Shown here one piece after another: positions 1 through 19,696 of a stretch of DNA of 64,000 nt. The position numbers and the translations under genes were made by a program. Source of the stretch: Glycomyces sambucus (GTDB taxonomy: Bacteria; Actinomycetota; Actinomycetes; Mycobacteriales; Micromonosporaceae); assembly GCF_900102815.1 (NCBI RefSeq), contig NZ_FNGF01000005.1:248001-312000 (forward strand), read 5' to 3'. The stretch's first letter is position 1. Each line of letters starts with the position of its first letter. The notes below the pieces were generated by a model, which worked only from the letters and a program-made list of their open reading frames with translations, did not search any database and was not told the origin of the DNA.

Positions 1-936
1 TCCCAGGAGGGCACGGTCTTCCGGGCCGAGTCGATCCTCGCCGGCGCCCTGTTCCTGTCGATGCCGTACATCTTCGGCGCGCTCTCGGGCGTCGTCTGCG
101 AGCGCTCGGGCGTCATCAACATCGGCATCGAGGGCCAGTTCCTCATGGGCGCCTTCACCGGCGTCCTCGTCGCGAACATCACCGGCAGCATCTACGCCGG
201 GCTCGCCGGCGCGATGATCGCCGGCTCGCTCTCGACGATGCTCCTCGCGCTCCTGGCCACCAAGTACCAGGTGAACCAGGTCGTCGTCGGCGTCATCCTC
301 AACCTGCTCGCGCTCGGCTTCACCAGCTTCATGTACGACCAGCTGAAGAAGGCCGACGGGCTCAACGACGCGTTCTCGGTGCCGGTCATCTCGTGGGGCC
401 CGCTCGCGGACATCCCCGTGCTCGGCCCGGTCCTGTTCCAGCAGAAGCTGTTCGTGTACGTCGGCCTCGTCATGGTCCTCGTCGTGTGGTTCCTGCTGTA
501 CCGGACCCGCTGGGGCCTGCGGACCCGCGCGGTCGGCGAGCACCCGGCCGCCGCGGACTCCATGGGCGTCAACGTCAACCGCCTCCGCTACTGGAACGTG
601 GTCGCCGCGGGCCTCCTCGCCGGCTTCGGCGGGGCCTGGTTCACGCTCGGGAACTCGCTGGCGTTCAACAAGAACATGACCGCCGGGCTCGGCTTCGTCG
701 CGCTCGCGGTCATGATCGTGGGCCGCTGGAACCCGCTCGGCGTCCTCGCCGGGGCCCTGATCTTCGGCTTCACCACCCAGATCGCCCGCGACCTCTCCGC
801 GGCCGGCTCCTCGGTGCCCGGCGAGTTCCTCCAGATGCTCCCGTACGCGGTCACGCTCGTGGTCGTGGCGGGCCTCATCGGCAAGGCCAAGGCCCCGGCG
901 GCCGACGGCGTGCCGTACAACCCGGGGGACAAGTAG
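1..936 (+). CDS. Nucleoside ABC importer permease, 5' end outside window
   Basis: The frame is open from base 1, twenty codons ahead of the first ATG at 61, so the gene starts upstream of the window and 311 residues are visible. It is a very hydrophobic integral membrane protein with about eight predicted membrane segments. The conserved cytoplasmic loop SGVINIGIEGQ and the later GLGFVALAVMIVGRWNPLG are typical of BmpC/YufQ-type permeases of BMP-lipoprotein-dependent nucleoside importers. It is followed directly by cytidine deaminase and thymidine phosphorylase, which supports nucleosides as substrate. The ATPase, partner permease and binding lipoprotein should lie upstream. Family assignment is firm; exact substrate is inferred from context. 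Confidence 0.9.
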   Translation, partial: SQEGTVFRAESILAGALFLSMPYIFGALSGVVCERSGVINIGIEGQFLMGAFTGVLVANITGSIYAGLAGAMIAGSLSTMLLALLATKYQVNQVVVGVILNLLALGFTSFMYDQLKKADGLNDAFSVPVISWGPLADIPVLGPVLFQQKLFVYVGLVMVLVVWFLLYRTRWGLRTRAVGEHPAAADSMGVNVNRLRYWNVVAAGLLAGFGGAWFTLGNSLAFNKNMTAGLGFVALAVMIVGRWNPLGVLAGALIFGFTTQIARDLSAAGSSVPGEFLQMLPYAVTLVVVAGLIGKAKAPAADGVPYNPGDK

Positions 937-4224: not shown

Positions 4225-5124
4225 ATGCCGTTCGAGGACCCCGCGCACCCCGCGCCGCTGTACCGGCTCGTGGAGTCGCCCTTCGGCCGCGCCTACCTGC
4301 GGCTGCTGGGGCGGCCCGACGGGGAGGACATGGTCTACCGGATCTCGGGCTCGGTGTACGCCGACGTGCCGGGGGACGCGCTCGCGCCGTCGCTTCGGCA
4401 CGGCGCCAAGCTGTTCGGCTTCGAGGGCTACAACATCCGCCGCCTGCACCGCGAGCCCGGCACGAACCTGCTGCACCTGCTGACGCGCGAGATCGTCTTC
4501 TACACCGACCCGGCCGACCCGACGACGATCCTCACCGAGTGGGCGAACCCCGTCGACGGCCGCACCTACCCGGTGGTGCCGGTCAACAACGACGCGGTCA
4601 ACCAGGGCCCCTTCCCGATCGCCGCGTCCTTCACCGGGCCGCCGCCGCGGGCCGCGCACGGGCAGTTCGTGTGGACCATGGACATCCCGCCGCGCACCGA
4701 CCTGGGCGCGACGCTCGGGGACGGCTTCGGGCTGCCGGGCGGGGTCTACACGACGTTCGAGCTGTTCGACTTCATGGTCGCCGAGGACGTCGTGGACGCG
4801 TGCCGCGGCCGCCGCGTGCCCGAGGGCGCGATGCCGGTGGTGAACACGTGGACCCGTTCCAGCCCTTGGCCTCCGTTCACGGGCCTCGCGGAGGCGGAGA
4901 CCGGCGGCGCCGGGGTCGTGTACCACGCGCGCTCGTGGACCCTCGGCGGCTTCGACGAGCTGGAGGTGTGGCTCAAGGACGCCGTCGAGGCCGACCATCC
5001 CCTGTACACGGCCGCCCCCGACGAGCCGGGCCCGAGCCAGACCTCGTGGAGTTCGTTCTGGGCCAAGCAGCTCGGCGAGGGCGCGATCACGTGGGAGGAG
5101 TGGCGCGAGGCGAACGGCGCCTGA
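4225..5124 (+). CDS. DUF1838-like protein
   Basis: A 299-residue soluble protein with no signal peptide. The region LFGFEGYNIRRLHR and VVPVNNDAVNQGPFP resembles DUF1838 proteins as I remember them; no function is established for that family. ATG 4225 is chosen because AGAGGAG ends four bases upstream; a TTG at 4165 would extend the frame by twenty residues but has no binding site. Trp/Pro-rich C-terminal half (NTWTRSSPWPPF, SWSSFWAKQLG). It stands alone between the M20 gene and a methyltransferase and gives no contextual clue. Confidence 0.7.
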   Translation: MPFEDPAHPAPLYRLVESPFGRAYLRLLGRPDGEDMVYRISGSVYADVPGDALAPSLRHGAKLFGFEGYNIRRLHREPGTNLLHLLTREIVFYTDPADPTTILTEWANPVDGRTYPVVPVNNDAVNQGPFPIAASFTGPPPRAAHGQFVWTMDIPPRTDLGATLGDGFGLPGGVYTTFELFDFMVAEDVVDACRGRRVPEGAMPVVNTWTRSSPWPPFTGLAEAETGGAGVVYHARSWTLGGFDELEVWLKDAVEADHPLYTAAPDEPGPSQTSWSSFWAKQLGEGAITWEEWREANGA

Positions 5125-7774: not shown

Positions 7775-8956
7775 CTAGAGGTAGGTGTAGAGCAGCCGGT
7801 TGGGGCTGCCGCTGCCCGGGTTGGTCACGACGCCGGTGGTGGCGTTGGAGGTGATCCAGTTCGTCACCGCGGACGGGGACGCGCTGGGGTTGGCCTGGAG
7901 GTACAGGGCGGCGACGCCCGCGACGTGCGGGGAGGCCATCGACGTGCCGGAGATGGTGTTGGTGGCCGAGTTCGAGGAGTACCACGCCGAGGTGATCGAG
8001 GACCCGGGCGCGAAGACGTCCACGCACGTGCCGTAGTTCGAGTAGCTGGCGCGGGCGTCGGTCGAGGTGGTCGCGCCGACGGTGATCGCCGACGGGGTCG
8101 AGGCGGGGGAGCGGTTGCACGCGTTGGTGGACTCGTTGCCGGCCGCCACCACGAAGGTGACGCCCGAGGAGACCGCCGAGGCGACCGCGCTGTTCAGGGA
8201 CGCGGAGTACCCGCCGCCGAGGCTCATGTTGGCCACGGCGGGCTTGATGGCGTTGGTGCGCACCCAGTTGATGCCGTTGATGACCCCGGCGGTGGTGCCG
8301 GAGCCGGCGTTGTCGAGGACGCGCACGCCGTGGAGCGTGACGCCCTTGGCGACGCCGTGGATCGTCCCGCCGACGGTGCCGGCGACGTGGGTGCCGTGGC
8401 CGTTGCCGTCCTGGGGGTTCGAGTCGTTCTGGATGAAGTCGTAGCCGTTGCCCACGCGCCCGCTGAACTGCGTGTGGCTGGCGTTGATGCCGGTGTCCAC
8501 GATGTACGCGTGCACGCCCGCGCCGGTGTAGTTGTAGGTGTAGGTGCCCGACAGCGGCCGGTTGCGCTGGTCGATGCGGTCGAGGCCCCAGGTCGCGCCG
8601 GTCTGCGTGGCCTGGGTGGTGAACGCGGCGTTCTGCTCGACGAAGGCGACCCCGTCCTGCGCGGCGATCTCCCGGGCTTCGAGCTCGGTCGACTCCACGA
8701 GGAACGCGTCGACGCCCCGGTAGGTCTCGACGACGTCGGCGCCGTCCTCCTCGACGCTCTTCACCTGCGACGAGAACGAGGCGTCCTCGTCGAGGACGAC
8801 GATGTACTCGCCCGCGATGGCGCCGGCGGCGTCCTCGCCGAGGATCGCGCCGTACTGCGGGGCGGCCTCGGCCGCGGTGGCGGTGAACGCGAGCGCCGTG
8901 AGCGCCGCGGCGGCGAGCGCCGCTGCGGCGCCCGTCCTCTTTCTGATGGGTGACAT
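7775..8956 (-). CDS. Secreted S8 serine protease (aqualysin-type), copy 2
   Basis: A 393-residue preproprotease: signal peptide (residues 1-32, ending AEAAP), I9 propeptide (EYIVVLDED to about residue 115) and subtilase domain with Asp154 (IVDTG), His190 (HGTHVAG) and Ser339 (GTSMASPH). Cys280 and Cys311 correspond to the cysteine pair of copy 1. It is closest to copy 3, with nearly identical blocks such as GYDFIQND and GVRVLDNAGSGTTAGV, so the two arose by recent local duplication. It ends right after the catalytic domain. The 242-base gap upstream shows no clear promoter box, so read-through from copy 3 is possible. Confidence 0.92.
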   Translation of the reverse strand: MSPIRKRTGAAAALAAAALTALAFTATAAEAAPQYGAILGEDAAGAIAGEYIVVLDEDASFSSQVKSVEEDGADVVETYRGVDAFLVESTELEAREIAAQDGVAFVEQNAAFTTQATQTGATWGLDRIDQRNRPLSGTYTYNYTGAGVHAYIVDTGINASHTQFSGRVGNGYDFIQNDSNPQDGNGHGTHVAGTVGGTIHGVAKGVTLHGVRVLDNAGSGTTAGVINGINWVRTNAIKPAVANMSLGGGYSASLNSAVASAVSSGVTFVVAAGNESTNACNRSPASTPSAITVGATTSTDARASYSNYGTCVDVFAPGSSITSAWYSSNSATNTISGTSMASPHVAGVAALYLQANPSASPSAVTNWITSNATTGVVTNPGSGSPNRLLYTYL

Positions 8957-9198: not shown

Positions 9199-10755
9199 TC
9201 AGAGTTCGAGGGTCCAGGTGTTCAGGGTGCCGGTGTCGCCGGCGTAGGCGTCGACGATCCGCAGCGTCCAGGTCCCGGCCGCGGTCTCGTTCGACAGGTT
9301 CACCGTGTACGTGGCGATGACGTTGTCGGCCGAGTCGCTGCTGGAGGAGTTCTTCAGCGTGTAGCTGGTCCCGTCCGGCGCGATCAGGGAGATCGCGAGG
9401 TCGCCGCGGTAGGTGTGGGTGATGTTCACCGCGACGGTGCTGTTGGAGCGGGCGGTGCCGTCGCACGCGAGCGCCAGGGTCGAGGTCACGGTGGCGCGGT
9501 CGGCGATGGCGCGGGCGGTGGAGTTGGTGGCGGCGCAGTCGCTCGGCTCGCCCGGTCCGCCCCCGCCGTCCTCGGTCCCGGTGTACAGCAGCAGGTTCGG
9601 GCTGCCCTGGACGTCGGAGACGCGGCCCGCGGCGGCGTTGCCGGTGACCCACTCGGCCACGTCGTCGGTGGTCGCGCCCGGGTTCAGGCCCAGGTAGACC
9701 GCCGCGGCGCCCGCGACGTGCGGGGAGGCCATCGACGTGCCGGAGATGGTGTTGGTGGCGGTGGTCGAGGTGTGCCAGGCGGAGGTGATGCCCACGCCGG
9801 GCGCGAACACGTCGACGCACGAGCCGAAGTTCGAGAAGTAGGCGCGCGTGTCGGTGTTGTCGCTGGCGGCCACGGTGATCGCGGACGGCGCCGAGGCGGG
9901 GGAGACGTTGCAGGCGTCCTGGTCCTCGTTGCCCGCGGCGACGGCGAAGGTGACGCCGGCGTCCACGGCGGCCTCGACCGCGTTGTTCAGGGACGCGGAG
10001 TACCCGCCGCCGAGGCTCATGTTCGCCACGGCCGGCTGGATCGCGTTGGTGCGCACCCAGTTGATGCCGTTGACGACTCCGGCGGTGGTGCCCGAGCCGG
10101 CGTTGTCGAGGACCCGGACCCCGTGCAGGGTCACGTTCTTCGCGACGCCGTACGTCGTGCCGCCGACGGTGCCGGCGACGTGGGTGCCGTGCCCGTTGCC
10201 GTCCTGCGGGGTCGCGTCGTTCTGGATGAAGTCGTAGCCGGCCCCGACGCGGCCGGTGAACTCCGTGTGGCCGGCGTTGATGCCGGTGTCCACGATGTAC
10301 GCGTGCACGCCCGCGCCGTTGCCGAGGTACTCGTAGTCCCCGTCGAGGGGGAGGTCGAGCTGGTCGATGCGGTCGAGGCCCCAGGTCGCGCCGGTCTGCA
10401 CGTCGGCGACCGTGACGACCGCGTTCTGCTCGACGAACGCGACGCCGTCCTGCGCGGCGATCGACTTCGCCTCCGCCTCGGTGGACTCCACCAGGAACGA
10501 GTCGACGCCCCGGTAGGTGGCGACGACGTCGGCGCCGTCCTCCTCGGCGCCGGCGACACCGGTCGCGAACGAGGCGCCGTCGTCGAGGACGACGATGTAC
10601 TCGCCCGCGATGGCGTCGGGCGAGGCGGCGTTCAGGATCTCGCCGAGCGGTTCGGCATGGGCGGCCAGGCCGCCGAAGGTGATGGAGCCGACCGCGGCCG
10701 CGCCTGCGATCGCAGCGGCGGATATTCGGCGGACGGAACGGTGCGAGACGGTCAT
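9199..10755 (-). CDS. Secreted S8 serine protease with C-terminal P domain, copy 3
   Basis: A 518-residue preproprotease: signal (1-35), I9 propeptide (EYIVVLDDG onward), subtilase domain with Asp156, His192 and a GTSMASPH serine near residue 341, then a Gly-rich linker and a C-terminal domain of about 110 residues (THTYRGDLAISLIAPDGTS, AGTWTLRIVDAYAGDTGTL) matching proprotein-convertase P/Homo B domains. That domain usually stabilises the catalytic part or binds surfaces. Only this copy has it, so copies 1 and 2 either lost it or never had it. The upstream region has a well-formed promoter. Confidence 0.92.
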   Translation of the reverse strand: MTVSHRSVRRISAAAIAGAAAVGSITFGGLAAHAEPLGEILNAASPDAIAGEYIVVLDDGASFATGVAGAEEDGADVVATYRGVDSFLVESTEAEAKSIAAQDGVAFVEQNAVVTVADVQTGATWGLDRIDQLDLPLDGDYEYLGNGAGVHAYIVDTGINAGHTEFTGRVGAGYDFIQNDATPQDGNGHGTHVAGTVGGTTYGVAKNVTLHGVRVLDNAGSGTTAGVVNGINWVRTNAIQPAVANMSLGGGYSASLNNAVEAAVDAGVTFAVAAGNEDQDACNVSPASAPSAITVAASDNTDTRAYFSNFGSCVDVFAPGVGITSAWHTSTTATNTISGTSMASPHVAGAAAVYLGLNPGATTDDVAEWVTGNAAAGRVSDVQGSPNLLLYTGTEDGGGGPGEPSDCAATNSTARAIADRATVTSTLALACDGTARSNSTVAVNITHTYRGDLAISLIAPDGTSYTLKNSSSSDSADNVIATYTVNLSNETAAGTWTLRIVDAYAGDTGTLNTWTLEL

Positions 10756-13078: not shown

Positions 13079-14926
13079 ATGGCACCCCCGGAAACCCGCC
13101 GGTTCGAATCCGGCCGCGCCGTCCTCGCCGTGGTCCGGCTCCTGCCCCGCATCAGCCGCCCCCGCACCGCCCTCTTCGCCGCCACCACCCTCCTCACCGC
13201 CGCCCTCCCCCTGGCGATGACCATCGCCACCGGCCTCCTCATCGGCGCCGTCCCCGCCGCCGCCGACGCCGGACCCGGCTCCCCCGAGGCCCGCGACGCC
13301 TACCTCCTCCTCGCCGCCGGCGTCGCCGCCCTCCTCCTGGGCCGCCTCGCCGCCCACCTCCACGACGCCGTCGCCTTCAACCTCGGCCGCGACCTCGAAC
13401 TCCTCCTCCAGGACCGGCTCCTCGCCGCCGTCGCCCGCCCCGTCGGCATCGCCCACCTCGAAGACGACGAGGTCCTCGCCCTGCTGCGCATCGCCCGCCA
13501 GCTCGGCGCCGACTTCATCCGCCCCGAACGCGCCATCCGCGGCCTCGCCGCCATCGCCCCCGAGTTCCTCGCCGCCGCCGGCGCCTCGACCGTCCTGGCG
13601 TTCTTCAACATCTGGATCGGCCTCGTCTGGCTCGTCGCCTGGCCCGCGATCTTCATCGCCATGCAGGCCGACTACACCCGCGTCGGCAAGACCGCGTACC
13701 TCCGCTCCACCGAGATGCGCGAGACCGAGTACCTCCGCGACCTCGCCATCACCGCCGAGCCCGCCAAGGAGATCCGCGTCTGGGGCCTCATGGGCTGGCT
13801 CCTCGGCCGCTACGACCGCCAGTGGAACGAGCGCATGGCCTACTCCGACCGCCACCAGCGCCTCCGCCCCGCCACCGCGGTCGGCGTCATCGGCACGCTC
13901 CTGCTCCTCACCGTCGCCACCGCGCTCGCGCTCGCCGACGCGGGCCTCACCGGCGCCGTCGGCTTCTCCGCCCTCGCCGTCTACCTCGTCGCCCTCACCA
14001 CCATGTTCAACTTCTCGGCGTTCGACGACACGGCCGCGTTCCTCAGCCTCGGCTCCCTGCCCGTCCCGAAGGTCCTCGCCCTCGAAGACCGCCTCACCGA
14101 GGACCGGCGCGAGGCCACCGCCGAGCTCCCCGCCGCCGCCCCCGCGCACGCGATCCGCTTCGAGGCCGTCGACTTCGCCTACCCCGGCGCCGAACGCGCC
14201 GTCATCGCCGGACTCGACCTGGAGATCGAGGCCGGCACCTCCCTCGCGATCGTCGGCCACAACGGCGCCGGCAAGACCAGCCTCGTGAAGCTCCTCGCGG
14301 GCCTCTACGCGCCGACCGGCGGGCGCATCACCGCCGACGGCACCGACCTCGCCGCCGTCGACCCCGCCGCCTGGCGCACCCGCCTGTCGGCCCTGTTCCA
14401 GGACTTCACCCGCTACCAGCTCACCGTCCGCGACAACATCGCGTTCGGCGCCCCGCACCTCGCCGGGGACACCGACCTCATCTGGAAGGCGTGCGAGCCC
14501 ATGGGCATCCGCGCGCTCATCGAATCGCTCCCCAAAGGACTCGACACGGTCCTGTCGAGCGAGTACGGCGGCGGCACCGACCTCTCCGGCGGCCAGTGGC
14601 AGCGGATCGCCCTGGCCCGCGCGCTGTTCGCCGTCCAGGCCGGCGCGAAGGTCCTCATCCTCGACGAGCCCGCCGCGGCCCTCGACGTCCGCGCCGAGGC
14701 CGACCTCTACGAGCAGTTCCTCGACATCACCGCCGGACTCACCACCATCGTGATCTCCCACCGGTTCTCGACGGTGCGCCGCGCCGACCGCATCGTCGTC
14801 CTCGACGGCGGCCGCGTCGTGGAGGACGGCACCCACGACGACCTCATGGCCCTCGGCGGCCGCTACGCCGACGCGTTCACCCTCCAAGCCGACCGCCTCG
14901 CCCGATCCTCCCAGGAGCAGCCGTGA
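13079..14926 (+). CDS. ABC exporter half-transporter (membrane plus ATPase domain) A
   Basis: A 615-residue fused exporter subunit: N-terminal six-helix membrane domain (about residues 15-335), then an ATPase domain with Walker A GHNGAGKTS near residue 396, signature LSGGQWQR near 502 and Walker B LILDEPAAALD. EPAKEIRVWGL in the coupling region is common in actinobacterial exporters of peptides and natural products. No C39 peptidase domain precedes it. It overlaps the next gene by four bases (GTGA), so the two halves are translationally coupled and likely form a heterodimer. Substrate unknown. Confidence 0.88.
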   Translation: MAPPETRRFESGRAVLAVVRLLPRISRPRTALFAATTLLTAALPLAMTIATGLLIGAVPAAADAGPGSPEARDAYLLLAAGVAALLLGRLAAHLHDAVAFNLGRDLELLLQDRLLAAVARPVGIAHLEDDEVLALLRIARQLGADFIRPERAIRGLAAIAPEFLAAAGASTVLAFFNIWIGLVWLVAWPAIFIAMQADYTRVGKTAYLRSTEMRETEYLRDLAITAEPAKEIRVWGLMGWLLGRYDRQWNERMAYSDRHQRLRPATAVGVIGTLLLLTVATALALADAGLTGAVGFSALAVYLVALTTMFNFSAFDDTAAFLSLGSLPVPKVLALEDRLTEDRREATAELPAAAPAHAIRFEAVDFAYPGAERAVIAGLDLEIEAGTSLAIVGHNGAGKTSLVKLLAGLYAPTGGRITADGTDLAAVDPAAWRTRLSALFQDFTRYQLTVRDNIAFGAPHLAGDTDLIWKACEPMGIRALIESLPKGLDTVLSSEYGGGTDLSGGQWQRIALARALFAVQAGAKVLILDEPAAALDVRAEADLYEQFLDITAGLTTIVISHRFSTVRRADRIVVLDGGRVVEDGTHDDLMALGGRYADAFTLQADRLARSSQEQP

Positions 14927-16734
14927 CCCACCGCCTCGCGAACGGCCTGCGCGGCCTCAAGTACGCACTCGCCGTGGGATTCCGCGCCCACCCCAAGGCC
15001 ACCACCGCCCAGGTCGTCCTCGGCGTCGTCCAAGCGGTCCTCATGCCCGCCACCGTGTACCTCACGAAGGTCCTCATCGACGCCGTCCAGGCCGGGCACA
15101 CCCGCGAGGCGTGGCTCGCCGGCGCCGGGCTCGGTGCCGGGGTCGCCCTCATCTGGGCCGTCGTCTTCGCCTACGTCAAGCTCGTGTTCCTCGTCCTCGA
15201 CCACACCGCCCGCGCCTCCGACCGCGAGGTCATGGAGCTCATGGGCACCCCGCCCGGCCTCGACCACCACGAGCGGCCCGACCACCTCGACCAGGTGCAG
15301 CGCATCCGCGAGGACCGCTGGCTCCTCGGCGGGGCCGTCAACTGGCTCGCGCAGTGCCTGCGCGCTTTCGTGACCATCTGCGTCGGCGGAGCCCTCCTCT
15401 ACGCCGTCCACCCGCTCCTTCTCGTGTTCCCGCTGGTCGCCCTGGGCGCCATGGCGATCGCCAAGCGCGCGGGCGACATCGAGATCAAGGTCCAGGAGGC
15501 CACCAGCGAACCCGAGCGGCGCCGCCGCCACCTCTTCGAGGTCGCGACCCTCGCCGAGTCCGGGAAGGAGCTGCGTGTCTTCGGCTCCGCGGGCGAGATC
15601 GCGCGCCGCCACCACGAGACCGGCGCCGCCGTCGTCGCCGAACGCAACCGCGGCCAGTGGAAGGCCGCCCGCATCGCCACCGGCGAAGGCGTCCTCTCCG
15701 CGGTCGGCATGGCCGCCGGGATCGGCATCGTCCTCTACCTCGCGATCCGCGGCGAGGCCACCGCCGGAGACGTGGTCCTCCTCGTCTCCCTCATCGGCAT
15801 GGTCGCCGGCGCCGCGGGCGGCATCGCGATGCAGTCCGCGCTCCTGGTCCGCACCGGCAAGCTCGGCACCCGCCTGATGTGGCTGCGCGCGTACGCGAAC
15901 GAGTCCAGCGGGCCCGCCGTGCCGCTGCCCGTCCCCGACCGCCTCGCCGACGGCATCCGCCTCGACGGCGTCTCCTTCGCCTACCCCGAGTCCGAACGGG
16001 CCTCCCTCGACGACGTCACCCTGACGCTCCCGGCGGGCAAAGTGGTCGCCCTCGTCGGCGAGAACGGCGCGGGCAAGACCACCCTCGTCAAACTCCTGTC
16101 CGGTTTCTATCAGCCGACCTCCGGCACGATCGACGTCGACGGCACCGACCTCGCCGACTTCGAGACCGACGAGTGGCGCGAGCGCATCGGCGCCACCTAC
16201 CAGGACTTCACCCGCTTCGAGTTCACCGCCCGCGAGACCGTCGGCATCGGCGACCTGCGCAACACCTCCGACCCGCACAGCGGCTTCGACGACGACACCG
16301 TCCGCGCCGCCATGACCCGCGCGGGAGCCGAAGACGTCCTCGACGACCTCCCGCGCGGCCTCGACACGCGCCTGGGCTCCCGCTGGGACGACGGCACCGA
16401 CCTCTCCGGCGGCCAATGGCAGAAACTCGCCATAGGCCGGGGCCGGATGCGCCGCGACCCGCTCCTCGTCGTCTTCGACGAGCCCACCGCCGCCCTCGAC
16501 CCCCAGACCGAGCACGCGCTCTTCGAGCGCTTCGCCGAGGAGGTCCACGCCGGGCGCGCCCGCGGCACCGTCACCGTCCTGGTCTCCCACCGGTTCTCGA
16601 CGGTCTCGATGGCCGACCTCATCGTGGTCCTCGACGGCGGCCGCGTCGCCGAGACCGGCACCCACGACGAGCTCATGGCCCGCGGCGGCGCCTACGCCGA
16701 GCTGTACACGCTCCAGTCCTCCGCCTACCGCTGA
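14923..16734 (+). CDS. ABC exporter half-transporter B
   Basis: A 603-residue fused exporter subunit starting at GTG 14923 with AGGAG upstream. Membrane domain about residues 15-310, ATPase domain with Walker A GENGAGKTT near 378, signature LSGGQWQK near 494 and Walker B VVFDEPTAALD. Both halves have intact Walker B glutamates, so neither is an obvious degenerate site. ESGKELRVFG corresponds to the EPAKEIRVWG element of subunit A. Three paralogous membrane proteins follow on the same strand, 91 bases downstream. Confidence 0.88.
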   Translation: MTHRLANGLRGLKYALAVGFRAHPKATTAQVVLGVVQAVLMPATVYLTKVLIDAVQAGHTREAWLAGAGLGAGVALIWAVVFAYVKLVFLVLDHTARASDREVMELMGTPPGLDHHERPDHLDQVQRIREDRWLLGGAVNWLAQCLRAFVTICVGGALLYAVHPLLLVFPLVALGAMAIAKRAGDIEIKVQEATSEPERRRRHLFEVATLAESGKELRVFGSAGEIARRHHETGAAVVAERNRGQWKAARIATGEGVLSAVGMAAGIGIVLYLAIRGEATAGDVVLLVSLIGMVAGAAGGIAMQSALLVRTGKLGTRLMWLRAYANESSGPAVPLPVPDRLADGIRLDGVSFAYPESERASLDDVTLTLPAGKVVALVGENGAGKTTLVKLLSGFYQPTSGTIDVDGTDLADFETDEWRERIGATYQDFTRFEFTARETVGIGDLRNTSDPHSGFDDDTVRAAMTRAGAEDVLDDLPRGLDTRLGSRWDDGTDLSGGQWQKLAIGRGRMRRDPLLVVFDEPTAALDPQTEHALFERFAEEVHAGRARGTVTVLVSHRFSTVSMADLIVVLDGGRVAETGTHDELMARGGAYAELYTLQSSAYR

Positions 16735-16825
16735 CCGCCCGCGGCCCCAGGGAAATAGAATGCGCAGGGTCCCGACCCCACCGGGCCGGGACCCCCTCGC
16801 ACCCCTCCGGACCGGAAGCGCCCCA

Positions 16826-17635
16826 ATGGAACACGACACCGAAGACGTGACCGCCCACGACCGCGGCAGCAGCGGCGACCCCGGCGGCACGGACGACCCC
16901 GGCGGCACCGGCGACTCCAACGGGGCCGAGGAACACGGTCCAGCCGGGCACCGCGACAGCGACGACGGCGGCACCGGCGAATCCAGCGGCACTGACGCTT
17001 CGGGCGGCACCGACGTTGTAGACAGCGCTGACGTTGCAGACGGCACTGACACCTCAGACGGCACCGCCGAACCCCGCATCACCGTCGAACCCGGCATCCC
17101 CCGGCCGGTCGGCAAGGACGACCCGGCCCCGAAGGAGACCTTCGAAGGCTGCCCCCACCGCGTCCGCGTCCGCGACCTCACCCCCGGCGGCCGCATCCTC
17201 TTCACGACCGGGCTCCTCGCCGTCCTCACCGCCGGCCTCGTCCAGCTCCTCGCGCTCTTCGCCGGCGGATTCCTCCTGTCGATCGGCGCCGAGTTCAACG
17301 GCCGCATGCCGATCGCCACCGGACTGCTCCTCGTCCTCGGCTCCATGTTCGGCATGATCGGCGTCTTCGCCCTCGTCGGCACCTGGCGCCGCCTCCACCG
17401 CCCCGAGGCCCCCATCCCCTGGCTCACCGGCGCCGGCGCGCTCCTCACCCTCGCCGCCGCCATCCTCATCGGACTGTGGCTCGACCTCCCCTACGCCGCG
17501 CTGGCCGCACTCCCCTCGGCCGCCGTCGCCGCCCACCTCGTCCACCTCCGCGCACTCCTGGCCCCCAGGGAAACCTGCGACACCGACCCCGAACTGCCCG
17601 CACCCCTCGCCGAATGGCTCCGCACCACCACTTGA
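16826..17635 (+). CDS. C-x-H module membrane protein 1
   Basis: I do not recognise a described family. 269 residues: an acidic Gly/Asp/Ser-rich disordered N-terminus (1-90), then Cys109-Pro-His111, four hydrophobic segments (about 124-148, 162-184, 197-217, 221-243), a short basic loop with Leu-His191-Arg-Pro between segments 2 and 3, and a C-terminal Cys251. The same landmarks at the same spacing recur in the next two proteins. ATG 16826 starts at an Asp-rich segment; an upstream ATG at 16760 is possible but has no binding site. A TAGAAT hexamer at 16756 may be its -10. Confidence 0.75.
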   Translation: MEHDTEDVTAHDRGSSGDPGGTDDPGGTGDSNGAEEHGPAGHRDSDDGGTGESSGTDASGGTDVVDSADVADGTDTSDGTAEPRITVEPGIPRPVGKDDPAPKETFEGCPHRVRVRDLTPGGRILFTTGLLAVLTAGLVQLLALFAGGFLLSIGAEFNGRMPIATGLLLVLGSMFGMIGVFALVGTWRRLHRPEAPIPWLTGAGALLTLAAAILIGLWLDLPYAALAALPSAAVAAHLVHLRALLAPRETCDTDPELPAPLAEWLRTTT

Positions 17636-17661
17636 CGGGCCGCCGCACCGGGCCGTACGCT
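17632..17661 (+). promoter_or_regulatory. Putative promoter of C-x-H protein 2
   Basis: TTGACG (17632-17637), 18 bases, TACGCT (17656-17661), overlapping the end of the preceding gene. The stretch after the -10 resembles the region before protein 1, suggesting gene and promoter were duplicated together. Confidence 0.4.
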
Positions 17662-17722
17662 TTCCAGCGCCCCACCCGGCCGGCGCCGGGACCTCGCTCT
17701 TTGCCCGATTGAAAGCCCCAAA

Positions 17723-18853
17723 ATGGATAGAGAATCACCGGAACCGGTGCGAATCGACCCGCCCATCACCGTCGAATCCGCCGAACCGGAACCCTTCGCC
17801 GAACCGGCCCGCCGCCCCGAATGCGCGCACCGGCTCACCTGGCGCGAACTTACCGGCCCGGCCCGCCTGCACCTCGTCCTCCAGGTCCTGTCCGTGTGCG
17901 CCGTCCTCGCCGCCGCAGCGGCGCTCCTCACCGAAGCCGCCACCGCCCTGCGCGGCACACTCCTCGACCACGACCCATTGAGGTACGAAAGCGTCCTCAC
18001 CGCCGTCACCGGAGCGCTCCTGCCGATCGGCCCGATCGCGATGCTGCGGCTCTGGCAGCGGCCCCACCGGCCCGCCTCCGCGGCCCACTTCCTGTTCAGC
18101 GCCGGGCTCGGGATGACGATGTGCCTGGCGGTGGCCACCCGCAACGAATGGCTCGCCCTCGCCGCCCTGCCCGCCTACTCGCTCACGCAGGAGCTCGGCA
18201 AGTTCCGGCGCGTGCTCACCGACCGGGCCACCTGCGCGAGCGACCCCGCCCTGCCATTCGCGCTCCGCTTCCGCACCGGCGAACTCGACCTGCCCGCAGA
18301 CGACACCGAGCGGGCGTACCTCCTGGGGCCGAGACTGGTCATCGGCGACTTCGATTCCTGGAGCTGCCCGCACCTGCTGACCTGGGGCCAAATCAGGTTC
18401 GGCGCCAGAGTCCGAGGCATCATCGAGGAGGTCGCCTTCCTCCTCTACCAGCTGGGACTCGCTGCCGCGATCGTCGCGATCCTCGCCAACGCCGACCACT
18501 TCACAGTCCCCGTGCCGTCGGCGCTCAACACGGTGTCGGTCATCGTGATCGCTGCAGGCGCCGGCTACCTGCACCGCTACGTCCGCAAGGTGAGGTCGGT
18601 CGGCCCGCATCGGCACTTCGCGCTCACCTACCGCCACGACTACCTGCTGGCGTTCGCCGCCACCGCATCCGGTGCGACCGTCGCGGGCTGGGCCGCGCTC
18701 GCCCTCGACCGCCCGTACCTGTGGCTCACGGTCCCGTTCGCGCTCTACTGCGTCTACGGCCTGGTCGAGAACCTGGTGGTCAACACGCCGATCTCGCAAT
18801 GCAAGGCGCGGCCCGAACTCCACCCGATCGTCCAGTCCTGGAAGAAGGCGTGA
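17723..18853 (+). CDS. C-x-H module membrane protein 2, internally duplicated
   Basis: A 376-residue membrane protein that appears to contain the module twice. Copy a: Cys34-Ala-His36, membrane segments, Pro-His115-Arg-Pro, Cys171. Copy b: Cys215-Pro-His217, membrane segments, Pro-His296-Arg-His, Cys360. The distance from the first Cys to the loop His is 81 residues in both copies. The first block aligns as CAHRLTWRELTGPAR against CPHLLTWGQIRFGAR. No enzymatic motif is recognised. About eight membrane segments in total. Possible roles are metal or redox sensing through the conserved Cys/His, or accessory subunits for the exporter upstream; both are inference. Confidence 0.8.
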   Translation: MDRESPEPVRIDPPITVESAEPEPFAEPARRPECAHRLTWRELTGPARLHLVLQVLSVCAVLAAAAALLTEAATALRGTLLDHDPLRYESVLTAVTGALLPIGPIAMLRLWQRPHRPASAAHFLFSAGLGMTMCLAVATRNEWLALAALPAYSLTQELGKFRRVLTDRATCASDPALPFALRFRTGELDLPADDTERAYLLGPRLVIGDFDSWSCPHLLTWGQIRFGARVRGIIEEVAFLLYQLGLAAAIVAILANADHFTVPVPSALNTVSVIVIAAGAGYLHRYVRKVRSVGPHRHFALTYRHDYLLAFAATASGATVAGWAALALDRPYLWLTVPFALYCVYGLVENLVVNTPISQCKARPELHPIVQSWKKA

Positions 18854-18958
18854 CCGCGGCACCGACCCCGCTCCACCCCGGCTCACCCTGCCCCCTCGCC
18901 CCGACATCTTCGGTCTACCGTGGCGAGCCCGCCGGCCACCCCGTTGAAAGCTCAGTAA

Positions 18959-19696
18959 ATGACCAGCGCCGCATACGAAGACGAGCCCGGCCCGACAGTC
19001 TCGGTTGAAGCCGGCGGCCCGGCGACGGACGGCCACATCCCGGCCGCATCGGCCCGCCCCGAGTCGCAGCCGACGATGTACCCGCATGCGCCGGCAAGCC
19101 ACCCACCGGGCCCTTGGGCCCCGTCGAGCCCCTTGGCCGGTACGGGAACCTGGGGCACCCCTGTCGCCCACGGCATTCCGACTCCGCCGCAGCGTTACCG
19201 CGCCAAGGACTGCCCGCACTTCGTGCCCTTCGGCGACCTGCGGTCGCGGTACCGGATCACCGAGGCCCTGCGCCCTGCCGTGAGCGTCCTCTACCTCGTC
19301 GGCACGATGCAGTACCTCGCCCCGCTGATCAGCCTCGCCCTGGACGAGCCCGACGCAGGCGGCTGGTTCGCCGCTGCCGTCATCACGCTCATCCTCATGC
19401 CGTTCAACCTCGTCGGGGTCCGCGAAGCGCACCGCTCCTCGAAGCGGCTCCACCGGCCCTCCGTGGTCGCACTGGTGGTGAGCCTGCTCGGCCATGCGGT
19501 CATCCTGTTGTTCTCGGTCCAGTCCGTCGTGTACGGGATGCCGTTGGCCGCGGTGTGCGCGCTGGCCACCCTGTACCAGGCCGTCGACCTCGTCGCCGCG
19601 ACTGCAACGCTGCCGCGCCGTGCGGCCTGCCGCAGCCTGCCAGCCGTCATCCCCGCCATGCGGAAGCGAGTGGCGACGCCGCCCGCTCTCGGCTAG
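18959..19696 (+). CDS. C-x-H module membrane protein 3
   Basis: 245 residues with a Pro/Gly-rich disordered N-terminus (1-80), then Cys85-Pro-His87, hydrophobic segments, Leu-His165-Arg-Pro and Cys224. Cys-to-His distance is 80 residues, against 82, 81 and 81 in the other module copies. Third in the tandem set and the last gene of the strand; it is only four bases from the stop of the convergent DUF1963-like gene. GAAAGC precedes the start, as GAAAGC also does for protein 2. Confidence 0.75.
   Translation: MTSAAYEDEPGPTVSVEAGGPATDGHIPAASARPESQPTMYPHAPASHPPGPWAPSSPLAGTGTWGTPVAHGIPTPPQRYRAKDCPHFVPFGDLRSRYRITEALRPAVSVLYLVGTMQYLAPLISLALDEPDAGGWFAAAVITLILMPFNLVGVREAHRSSKRLHRPSVVALVVSLLGHAVILLFSVQSVVYGMPLAAVCALATLYQAVDLVAATATLPRRAACRSLPAVIPAMRKRVATPPALG

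Follow-up and report, generated by a model that had tools for sequence, protein, structure and literature searches.

Three adjacent genes of Glycomyces sambucus, next to an ABC exporter pair, encode four copies of one small membrane module. This raises the question of what the module is, which of its residues matter, and whether it works with the exporter at its side.

A tandem array of membrane modules

The locus lies in a window of 64,000 nucleotides, i.e., the whole stretch of DNA that was analysed, and its features are listed in Table 1. The initial annotation had proposed four module copies in three adjacent genes in tandem, and this is borne out by the open reading frames and by the homology of the modules in profile comparisons (hhalign). 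A purine-rich stretch 5' of each of the three open reading frames could act as a ribosome-binding site. The N-terminal tails hold a feature absent from the initial annotation, an I-T-V-E-type motif, which lies upstream of the C-x-H and in frame with it in 24 of the 25 module proteins of the family.

Table 1. Features of the module locus and of its exporter neighbours, in window positions.
Feature	Position	Strand	Remarks
ABC exporter half 1	13079-14926	+	615 aa; TMD+NBD
ABC exporter half 2	14923-16734	+	TMD+NBD; four-base overlap with half 1
Leader of protein 1	16736-16825	+	TAGAAT, inverted repeat, then purine-rich stretch; similar layout in relatives
TAGAAT in leader	16756-16761	+	
Inverted repeat in leader	16767-16774 / 16787-16794	+	GGGTCCCG / CGGGACCC
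Protein 1	16826-17635	+	269 aa; low-complexity long N-tail, then one module; four predicted TM helices
ITVE motif, protein 1	17078-17089	+	in N-tail
Module of protein 1	17141-17632	+	CPH...LHRP...C; AlphaFold2 pLDDT 90.8
Protein 2	17723-18853	+	376 aa; tail and two modules; eight predicted TM helices, one kinked
ITVE motif, protein 2	17765-17776	+	in tail
Module m1 of protein 2	17813-18331	+	
Module m2 of protein 2	18356-18850	+	
Protein 3	18959-19696	+	245 aa; Pro-rich tail and one module grouping with second-type modules
VSVE, variant of ITVE, protein 3	18998-19009	+	in Pro-rich tail
Module of protein 3	19202-19693	+	

The leader of protein 1 folds with -16.3 kcal/mol (55 bases folded), and the three leaders of the window all fold weakly (-16.3, -13.2, and -12.3). 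The hairpin is a prediction from single-sequence folds, made for 19 leaders of the 25 module genes; RNAalifold on ten leaders, three rows of which were too short, gave three weak pairs and no real stem. A formal scan of the leader detected neither a promoter nor a + strand terminator. A promoter-plus-leader pattern had no match in the organism's own genome.

Invariant residues and predicted fold

We recomputed the spacing of the conserved residues in the four modules and obtained the distances given previously: 82, 81, 81, and 80 residues from the C-x-H to the loop His, and 60, 56, 64, and 59 from this His to the last Cys. The His-Arg pair that had been read in the loop stands in part: the His is present in all four modules, but the Arg after it is not secure in the second module of protein 2. 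There the loop is GPHRHF, and comparison with a relative that has GPHLHR suggests that it may be the second His that corresponds to the loop His of the other modules.

Across the family, the C-x-H, the loop His, and the last Cys are the sole invariant columns of the alignment, and all 34 modules, which come from 15 of the 22 Glycomyces genomes, have them. The modules were excised at a C-x-H, so this half of the pattern is preselected, while the loop His and the last Cys are not. Loss of the Cys/His pattern in homologues, named in the initial annotation as a refuting observation, does not occur among the 34. A profile built from them and run over the 22 genomes hit all 34 at full length and added no other full-length match. 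Among the predicted genes of the loci retrieved, the pattern C.H-(70..90)-H-(50..70)-C is matched by 21 of the 25 module proteins as modelled, the gene models having shortened some N termini, and by none of the 390 other genes. The invariant set comprises exactly two Cys and two His in every module (34/34); other Cys are missing from 15 of the 34 modules and other His from four. Because the modules are homologous, the invariance is complete, the background is 0/390, and some modules have no Cys or no His beyond the invariant ones, the spacing and the pattern cannot be attributed to chance.

Hydropathy gives four TM segments per module. Lys and Arg are enriched at the N side, in the His-bearing loop, and at the C side, and Asp and Glu in the first outer loop. 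By the positive-inside rule, all four invariant residues are predicted to be on the cytoplasmic side. AlphaFold2 confidently models the module of protein 1 as a four-helix bundle (pLDDT 90.8, pTM 0.81; input of 16 of the 34 modules) with helices at residues 15-52, 55-83, 91-114, and 117-139. Within this model, the blocks bearing C4 and C146 have some of the lowest confidence (mean pLDDT 71 and 72), and the model of the whole of protein 2 has pLDDT 74.8 and pTM 0.59. The predicted module is an up-down four-helix bundle with both ends inside. Comparison of the module model with known folds (Foldseek) recognised no named family among the matches listed (best E 0.073), in line with what had been proposed, and VIA-align returned generic four-helix bundles; with both programs the matches are spread over many unrelated folds.

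Naming, spread, and divergence of the family

The libraries searched support the earlier view that the module is undescribed by name: no relative was found in Pfam, NCBIfam, PADLOC, or the PDB sequences, and profile searches gave no accepted match for either the three proteins or the 34 modules. The three proteins matched no named family in Pfam and NCBIfam at E 10, PADLOC gave no relative at E 1, and the best PDB sequence match of the module profile (6cfw_C, E 0.026) is not significant. The 34 modules matched 38 Pfam families at E 1, and among the 25 listed, each matched one to three members; the best of these 25 were DUF7942 (5.8e-5) and GPDPase_memb (5.8e-4), with one member each. We took these families to be noise from hydrophobic segments. 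A limited literature search found no publication on the module family or on a cytoplasmic Cys2His2 site like it.

The family was seen only in Glycomyces among the genomes searched. Outside the genus, no full-length module was seen in overlapping samples drawn from the family (300 genomes, of which 22 are Glycomyces), the order (397), and the phylum (396); in these samples the best 9 to 12 candidates per genome of a loose first pass were scored, so a weak relative outside the genus could be missed. The order sample missed one G011 module that the profile scan of the 22 genomes had. Of the weak partial matches, eight on minus strands all lack the C.H, H, C pattern, further ones in G947, G729, and G968 begin past the C-x-H, and two more are on plus strands (L051 and L060). 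A match in G056 was rejected as a module, as by eye it sits in a long transporter-like open reading frame. Searches of plasmids with protein 1, of phages with protein 3, and of contigs with protein 2 gave no match, and a contig search with seven protein 1-type modules returned six named Glycomyces loci.

Within the genus, the 24 first-type and single modules match the 10 second-type modules with an hhalign probability of 99.2% (E 5.7e-20; protein 3 counted with the second-type modules only). The median pairwise identity of the 34 modules is 24%, and their tree spans 29.9 changes per column of an alignment of about 164 positions. The second-type modules and protein 3 form one clade in this tree (support 100/100), and protein 3 probably derives from an ancestor with two modules, the first of which was lost. 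Tandem duplication and loss are part of the history of the family, and divergence is fast everywhere save at the four invariant residues. The dN/dS of the protein 1-type module ranges from 0.25 to 1.72 (21 pairs, 7 genomes) and exceeds 0.6 in 20 of the 21 pairs, against 0.16 to 0.57 for the exporter halves, with absolute values unreliable because the high GC3 depresses dS. The exception is the pair G009-G012, in which the module (0.25) is below the exporter halves (0.36 and 0.43). Relaxed constraint and diversification explain this rapid change equally well.

A candidate metal site, its alternatives, and known systems

The initial annotation had suggested a metal or redox function for the conserved residues. 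This reading is plausible, since two Cys and two His are invariant and are placed on one predicted face of the membrane, and a metal site is favoured over a bare thiol pair because the two His are invariant too. We propose that three parts of the module would come together at the cytoplasmic face: the C-x-H at the N terminus, the His in the loop between TM2 and TM3, and the Cys that follows TM4. They would bind a single metal ion in each module, most likely zinc, and so staple the cytoplasmic ends of the bundle. The Cys2His2 site is probably one structural zinc per module. With the fold preserved by such a staple, the remaining sequence would be free to drift or diversify. The flexible tail in the cytoplasm that carries the I-T-V-E-type motif might be a docking handle for a cellular partner. 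In the most speculative step, the set of each genome, expressed on its own and not as an exporter subunit, could be a diversified membrane guard or receptor, either immunity-like or partner-specific. A Pfam scan of ten neighbours, in which no toxin or natural-product gene was recognised, counts against this account. We give an even chance to the whole account, that of an undescribed four-TM family, metal-stapled, fast-evolving, tail-docked, and guard- or receptor-like. A related formulation is possible, although we incline against it: a new metal-stapled family whose Cys2His2 site (zinc, iron-sulphur, or heme) fixes the bundle while the surface diversifies, yielding species-specific tandem receptors or guards tethered by the I-T-V-E tail to a common partner.

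In the libraries searched, the family has by its sequence neither a name nor a recognised relative. Its targets for mutagenesis are unambiguous, as across some 30 changes per column 4 positions of about 164 are retained. Should a metal be found, the module would be a clean case of a metal site that gives a membrane protein evolutionary freedom, and would offer a way into the origin and diversification of genus-specific membrane families. If nothing binds, the strict invariance of the Cys and His becomes the puzzle.

The neighbouring exporter offers another function, in which the modules serve the ABC pair as accessory subunits or immunity partners within one pathway. The modules are directly downstream of the pair in 13 of the 22 genomes, and in G003 the pair lies inside a cluster with condensation, AMP-binding, carrier-protein, and P450 genes, showing that this type of exporter can serve a natural product. 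However, each occurs without the other. Exporter genes are found without a module in G003 itself and in G001, G013, G015, and G020 (half 2 fragment at a contig end), a module occupies the same site in G018 without exporter half 1 (none at E 1e-60), the two are in different places in G010, and a second exporter copy in G004 has no adjoining module. Co-occurrence in the 22 genomes (five exporter-only, one without half 1, one apart) thus speaks against an obligate partnership. In addition, a leader with a predicted hairpin lies between the exporter and many of the module genes, and shared descent of the neighbourhood accounts for the remaining adjacency. The shared pathway suggested initially is weakly supported; we consider it unlikely.

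The same residues could instead hold an iron-sulphur cluster, with Rieske-like ligands, or heme, making the proteins cytoplasm-facing membrane redox or heme sensors. The ligand set of two Cys and two His would suit this, C-x-H occurs also among Rieske ligands, and Pro follows the first Cys in 28 of the 34 modules, Cys-Pro being typical of heme regulatory motifs. Yet this Pro is replaced in the other 6 modules, and the Pfam scan of the ten neighbours recognised no electron-transfer or heme gene. In Rieske proteins the two ligand pairs C-x-H and C-x2-H lie near each other on soluble beta loops (C-x-H-x(15-17)-C-x2-H), whereas the ligands of the module are on three ends of a helix bundle, with the His about 80 and the Cys about 140 residues after the C-x-H. 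Such a cofactor is improbable, to about the same degree as the exporter partnership. More doubtful still is a thiol redox switch or disulfide relay with the His as helpers and no metal: each module has exactly two invariant Cys, its only ones in 15 of 34, but the two His are just as invariant and the predicted position of the Cys is on the cytoplasmic, reducing side.

In the least probable reading, the modules branched off within the widespread four-TM family DUF6328 (PF19853), diverged, and gained their Cys/His site in Glycomyces. The three best matches outside the genus (1.8e-8, 8.9e-7, and 5.3e-6) are DUF6328 members, all modules together match the family over TM2-TM4 (hhalign 57%, E 1e-4; reversed control 1%), and DUF6328 is present in 57 of 81 genomes and missing from both Glycomyces genomes sampled. 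This similarity does not clearly exceed controls: column-shifted DUF6328 reaches up to 42%, first-type modules score 38% against the unrelated MnhG, which served as noise control, and taken apart, the first-type and second-type modules score 6% and 3.5% against DUF6328 (14% and 3% with protein 3 in both sets). PF19853 gave no match for the three proteins at E 10 and is not among the 25 listed of the 38 Pfam families matched by the modules at E 1.

The module can be compared with several known systems. Like it, DUF6328, on which a limited literature search found no publication, is a small actinobacterial protein with four TM segments; a His-Arg is conserved towards the end of its second hydrophobic stretch. 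Its invariant set differs: it lacks both a C-x-H ahead of TM1 and an invariant Cys behind TM4, and its LQELRV before TM1, invariant in 25 rows (25 of the 29 read), is absent from the module alignment. The best PDB sequence match, 6cfw_C (77 profile positions), is MnhG/PhaG (PF03334), the subunit G of the Mrp antiporter; PF03334 is not listed for the three proteins at E 10 in Pfam, and the NCBIfam subunit G model scores 9.1 bits against a cut-off of 122. The exporter type next door, an MsbA/ABCB half-transporter pair, is a separate protein family whose presence is not coupled to that of the modules. Four-helix folds of the PDB that can be set beside the predicted bundle include the copper storage proteins (Csp), the TARP gamma subunits, and the Fc epsilon RI beta chain.

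The module and its invariant residues

The window, with a GC content of about 72%, comes from a Glycomyces sambucus genome of 5.6 Mb. The initial annotation had described three adjacent membrane proteins that repeat a Cys-x-His, a loop His and a last Cys at near-constant distances, and re-reading the sequence reproduced the three ORFs and these spacings exactly. All three proteins start with a flexible tail, followed by one or two modules. Across the 34 modules found in the genus, the Cys and His of C-x-H, the loop His and the last Cys are invariant (34/34), and the next most conserved column is the Arg following the loop His (32/34). Pairwise identity has a median of 24% and a minimum of 12%, and the module tree (FastTree) has a length of 29.9 changes per column. 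The invariance of C-x-H is partly selected for, because modules were cut at this motif; the loop His and the last Cys are free of that selection. Cysteines beyond the invariant two are absent from 15 of the 34 modules, and further histidines from four. Among the other 390 genes predicted in the fetched loci, none shows the spacing pattern.

Averaged hydropathy gives four transmembrane (TM) segments per module. Lys and Arg concentrate in the His loop and on both the N and C sides; Asp and Glu do so in the first outer loop. Both termini should therefore be inside, and this sidedness should place all four invariant residues on the cytoplasmic face. An AlphaFold2 model of the module, computed from 16 of the 34 sequences, has helices at 15-52, 55-83, 91-114 and 117-139 (mean pLDDT 90.8, pTM 0.81; 71 and 72 in the blocks with C4 and C146). 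The model of protein 2, which carries two modules, is less confident (pLDDT 74.8, pTM 0.59) and has eight TM-length helices, one of them kinked. Likeness to solved structures is limited to the generic four-helix arrangement.

Upstream of C-x-H, 24 of the 25 module proteins carry an in-frame ITVE-type motif that the initial annotation does not describe (ITVE in 19; VTVE, VSVE, IYVE, IWVE and ITAV, the variants admitted in the search, in one each). Its strict form is present in 15 module proteins as modelled vs 1 of 390 other genes. In the 25th protein, the two-module protein of G. dulcitolivorans (G019), the likely start and the ITVE lie in a frame differing from that of the modules, which may reflect either an assembly error or a broken gene. 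Leaders were compared for 19 of the 25 module genes: eight have an exact TAGAAT, and nine have folding energies between -21 and -31 kcal/mol, most of these containing an inverted repeat of the GGTCCCG type. The three leaders in the window fold weakly (-12 to -16 kcal/mol). The hairpin could be the terminator of the upstream gene, a leader structure, or both. These elements hint at start sites of the module genes' own; a formal promoter scan called none.

Coordinates of features in the window and in fetched loci of related genomes
Feature	Sequence	Coordinates	Strand	Remark
Subtilase (peptidase S8) genes	window	7775-8956, 9199-10755		neighbouring genes; P-domain in the second
Exporter halves 1 and 2	window	13079-14926, 14923-16734		ABC exporter pair
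Proteins 1, 2 and 3	window	16826-17635, 17723-18853, 18959-19696	+	1, 2 and 1 modules
TAGAAT-like element and hairpin	window	16736-16825, 17640-17722		ahead of the ribosome-binding site; in many module genes of relatives, weaker in the window
ITVE-type motif	window	17078-17089, 17765-17776, 18998-19009		N-tails of proteins 1, 2 and 3
Likely start and ITVE of G019	L026	about 4600-4720		stretch also contained in L100
Gene cluster with the exporter pair of G003	L094	425-15762		NRPS-like and acyl-carrier genes
Orphan module end of G010	L099	5795-5866		24 residues, C-terminal; separate contig

Distribution, duplication and loss

A search with protein 2 over 61 genomes matched 16; one of these matches, in a different family of the same order (G056), was a false hit. 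The module profile A1, built from the 34 modules, recovered all of these at full length, from 15 of the 22 genus genomes, and its match in a sixteenth (G013) was only partial and inside an unrelated ORF. Copies number 1 to 7 per genome, in 16 one-module and 9 two-module proteins. Relatives of protein 1 in a second genome collection belong to six named Glycomyces species. Outside Glycomyces, overlapping samples of 300 family (22 of them from the genus), 397 order and 396 phylum genomes yielded no full-length module; scoring in these samples was limited to the 9 to 12 best candidates of each genome.

First-type and second-type modules, named by their position in two-module proteins, are homologous as judged by profile alignment (hhalign 99.2%, E 5.7e-20). 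The tree joins the nine second-type modules and that of protein 3 in one clade (100/100), with first-type and single modules on the other side. Protein 3 also has a tail similar to the one on a two-module protein from G006 (VSVEAGGPATDGHI vs ITVEPGGPAADGHI). Because of this tail and its place in the second-type clade, protein 3 most plausibly descends from a two-module protein whose first module was lost. In G018, the single module clusters with first-type modules from two-module proteins and may represent the reverse case, and the orphan module end in G010 is likely a relic. For protein 1-type modules, dN/dS is 0.25-1.72 (>0.6 in 20 of 21 pairs from seven genomes), against 0.16-0.57 for the exporter halves in the same pairs, the sole exception being G009-G012, where the module is slower; since high GC3 depresses dS, these values serve only as a module-exporter contrast.

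The neighbouring exporter

The exporter is followed by modules in 13 of the 22 genus genomes. Five have exporter genes without any module (G001, G003, G013, G015, G020); in G003 the exporter is at a different site, and in G020 it is represented by a half 2 fragment alone, at the end of a contig. The usual site of G018 has a module without exporter, G010 has the exporter at its place and a module elsewhere, and G017 and G021 have neither. Exporter half 1 was absent from G017, G018 and G021, even at E 1e-60. In G017 the ABC-F gene directly adjoins the DUF1905 gene and leuA, leaving an empty site. Because the occurrence of exporter and modules diverges in this way, we read their adjacency as a common site, which by itself does not prove a shared task. 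The exporter resembles a small-molecule exporter, since the G003 pair sits among NRPS-like condensation, AMP-binding, carrier-protein/acyl-carrier, P450 and KAS III genes.

Proposed role and comparison with known families

The computations show that the modules are homologous, keep four residues invariant and have been duplicated and lost, and they predict the fold and its sidedness. Beyond this, we infer that the four invariant residues, from three chain segments at one membrane face, would hold one metal ion per module, most probably zinc, which would staple the bundle. A bare disulfide or thiol pair is less likely because two His are also invariant, and a Rieske cluster because the ligand spacing is wide and the setting helical. 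As for the role of these putative metal-stapled modules, our best guess, made with low confidence, is that they serve as diversified membrane guards or receptors sharing a docking tail.

The nearest named candidate is the four-TM family DUF6328 (PF19853), whose profile and motif tests the modules fail. Its profile similarity is 57% to all modules together, and 6% and 3.5% to the two types taken apart; control values run as high as 42% for shifted columns and 38% for MnhG (PF03334). Of the 81 genomes sampled from the order, 57 have a DUF6328 match, but the two sampled Glycomyces genomes (G000, G018) have none. On these comparisons we regard the modules as a new family by sequence. They are nevertheless of a familiar sort: small four-helix membrane proteins restricted to one lineage.
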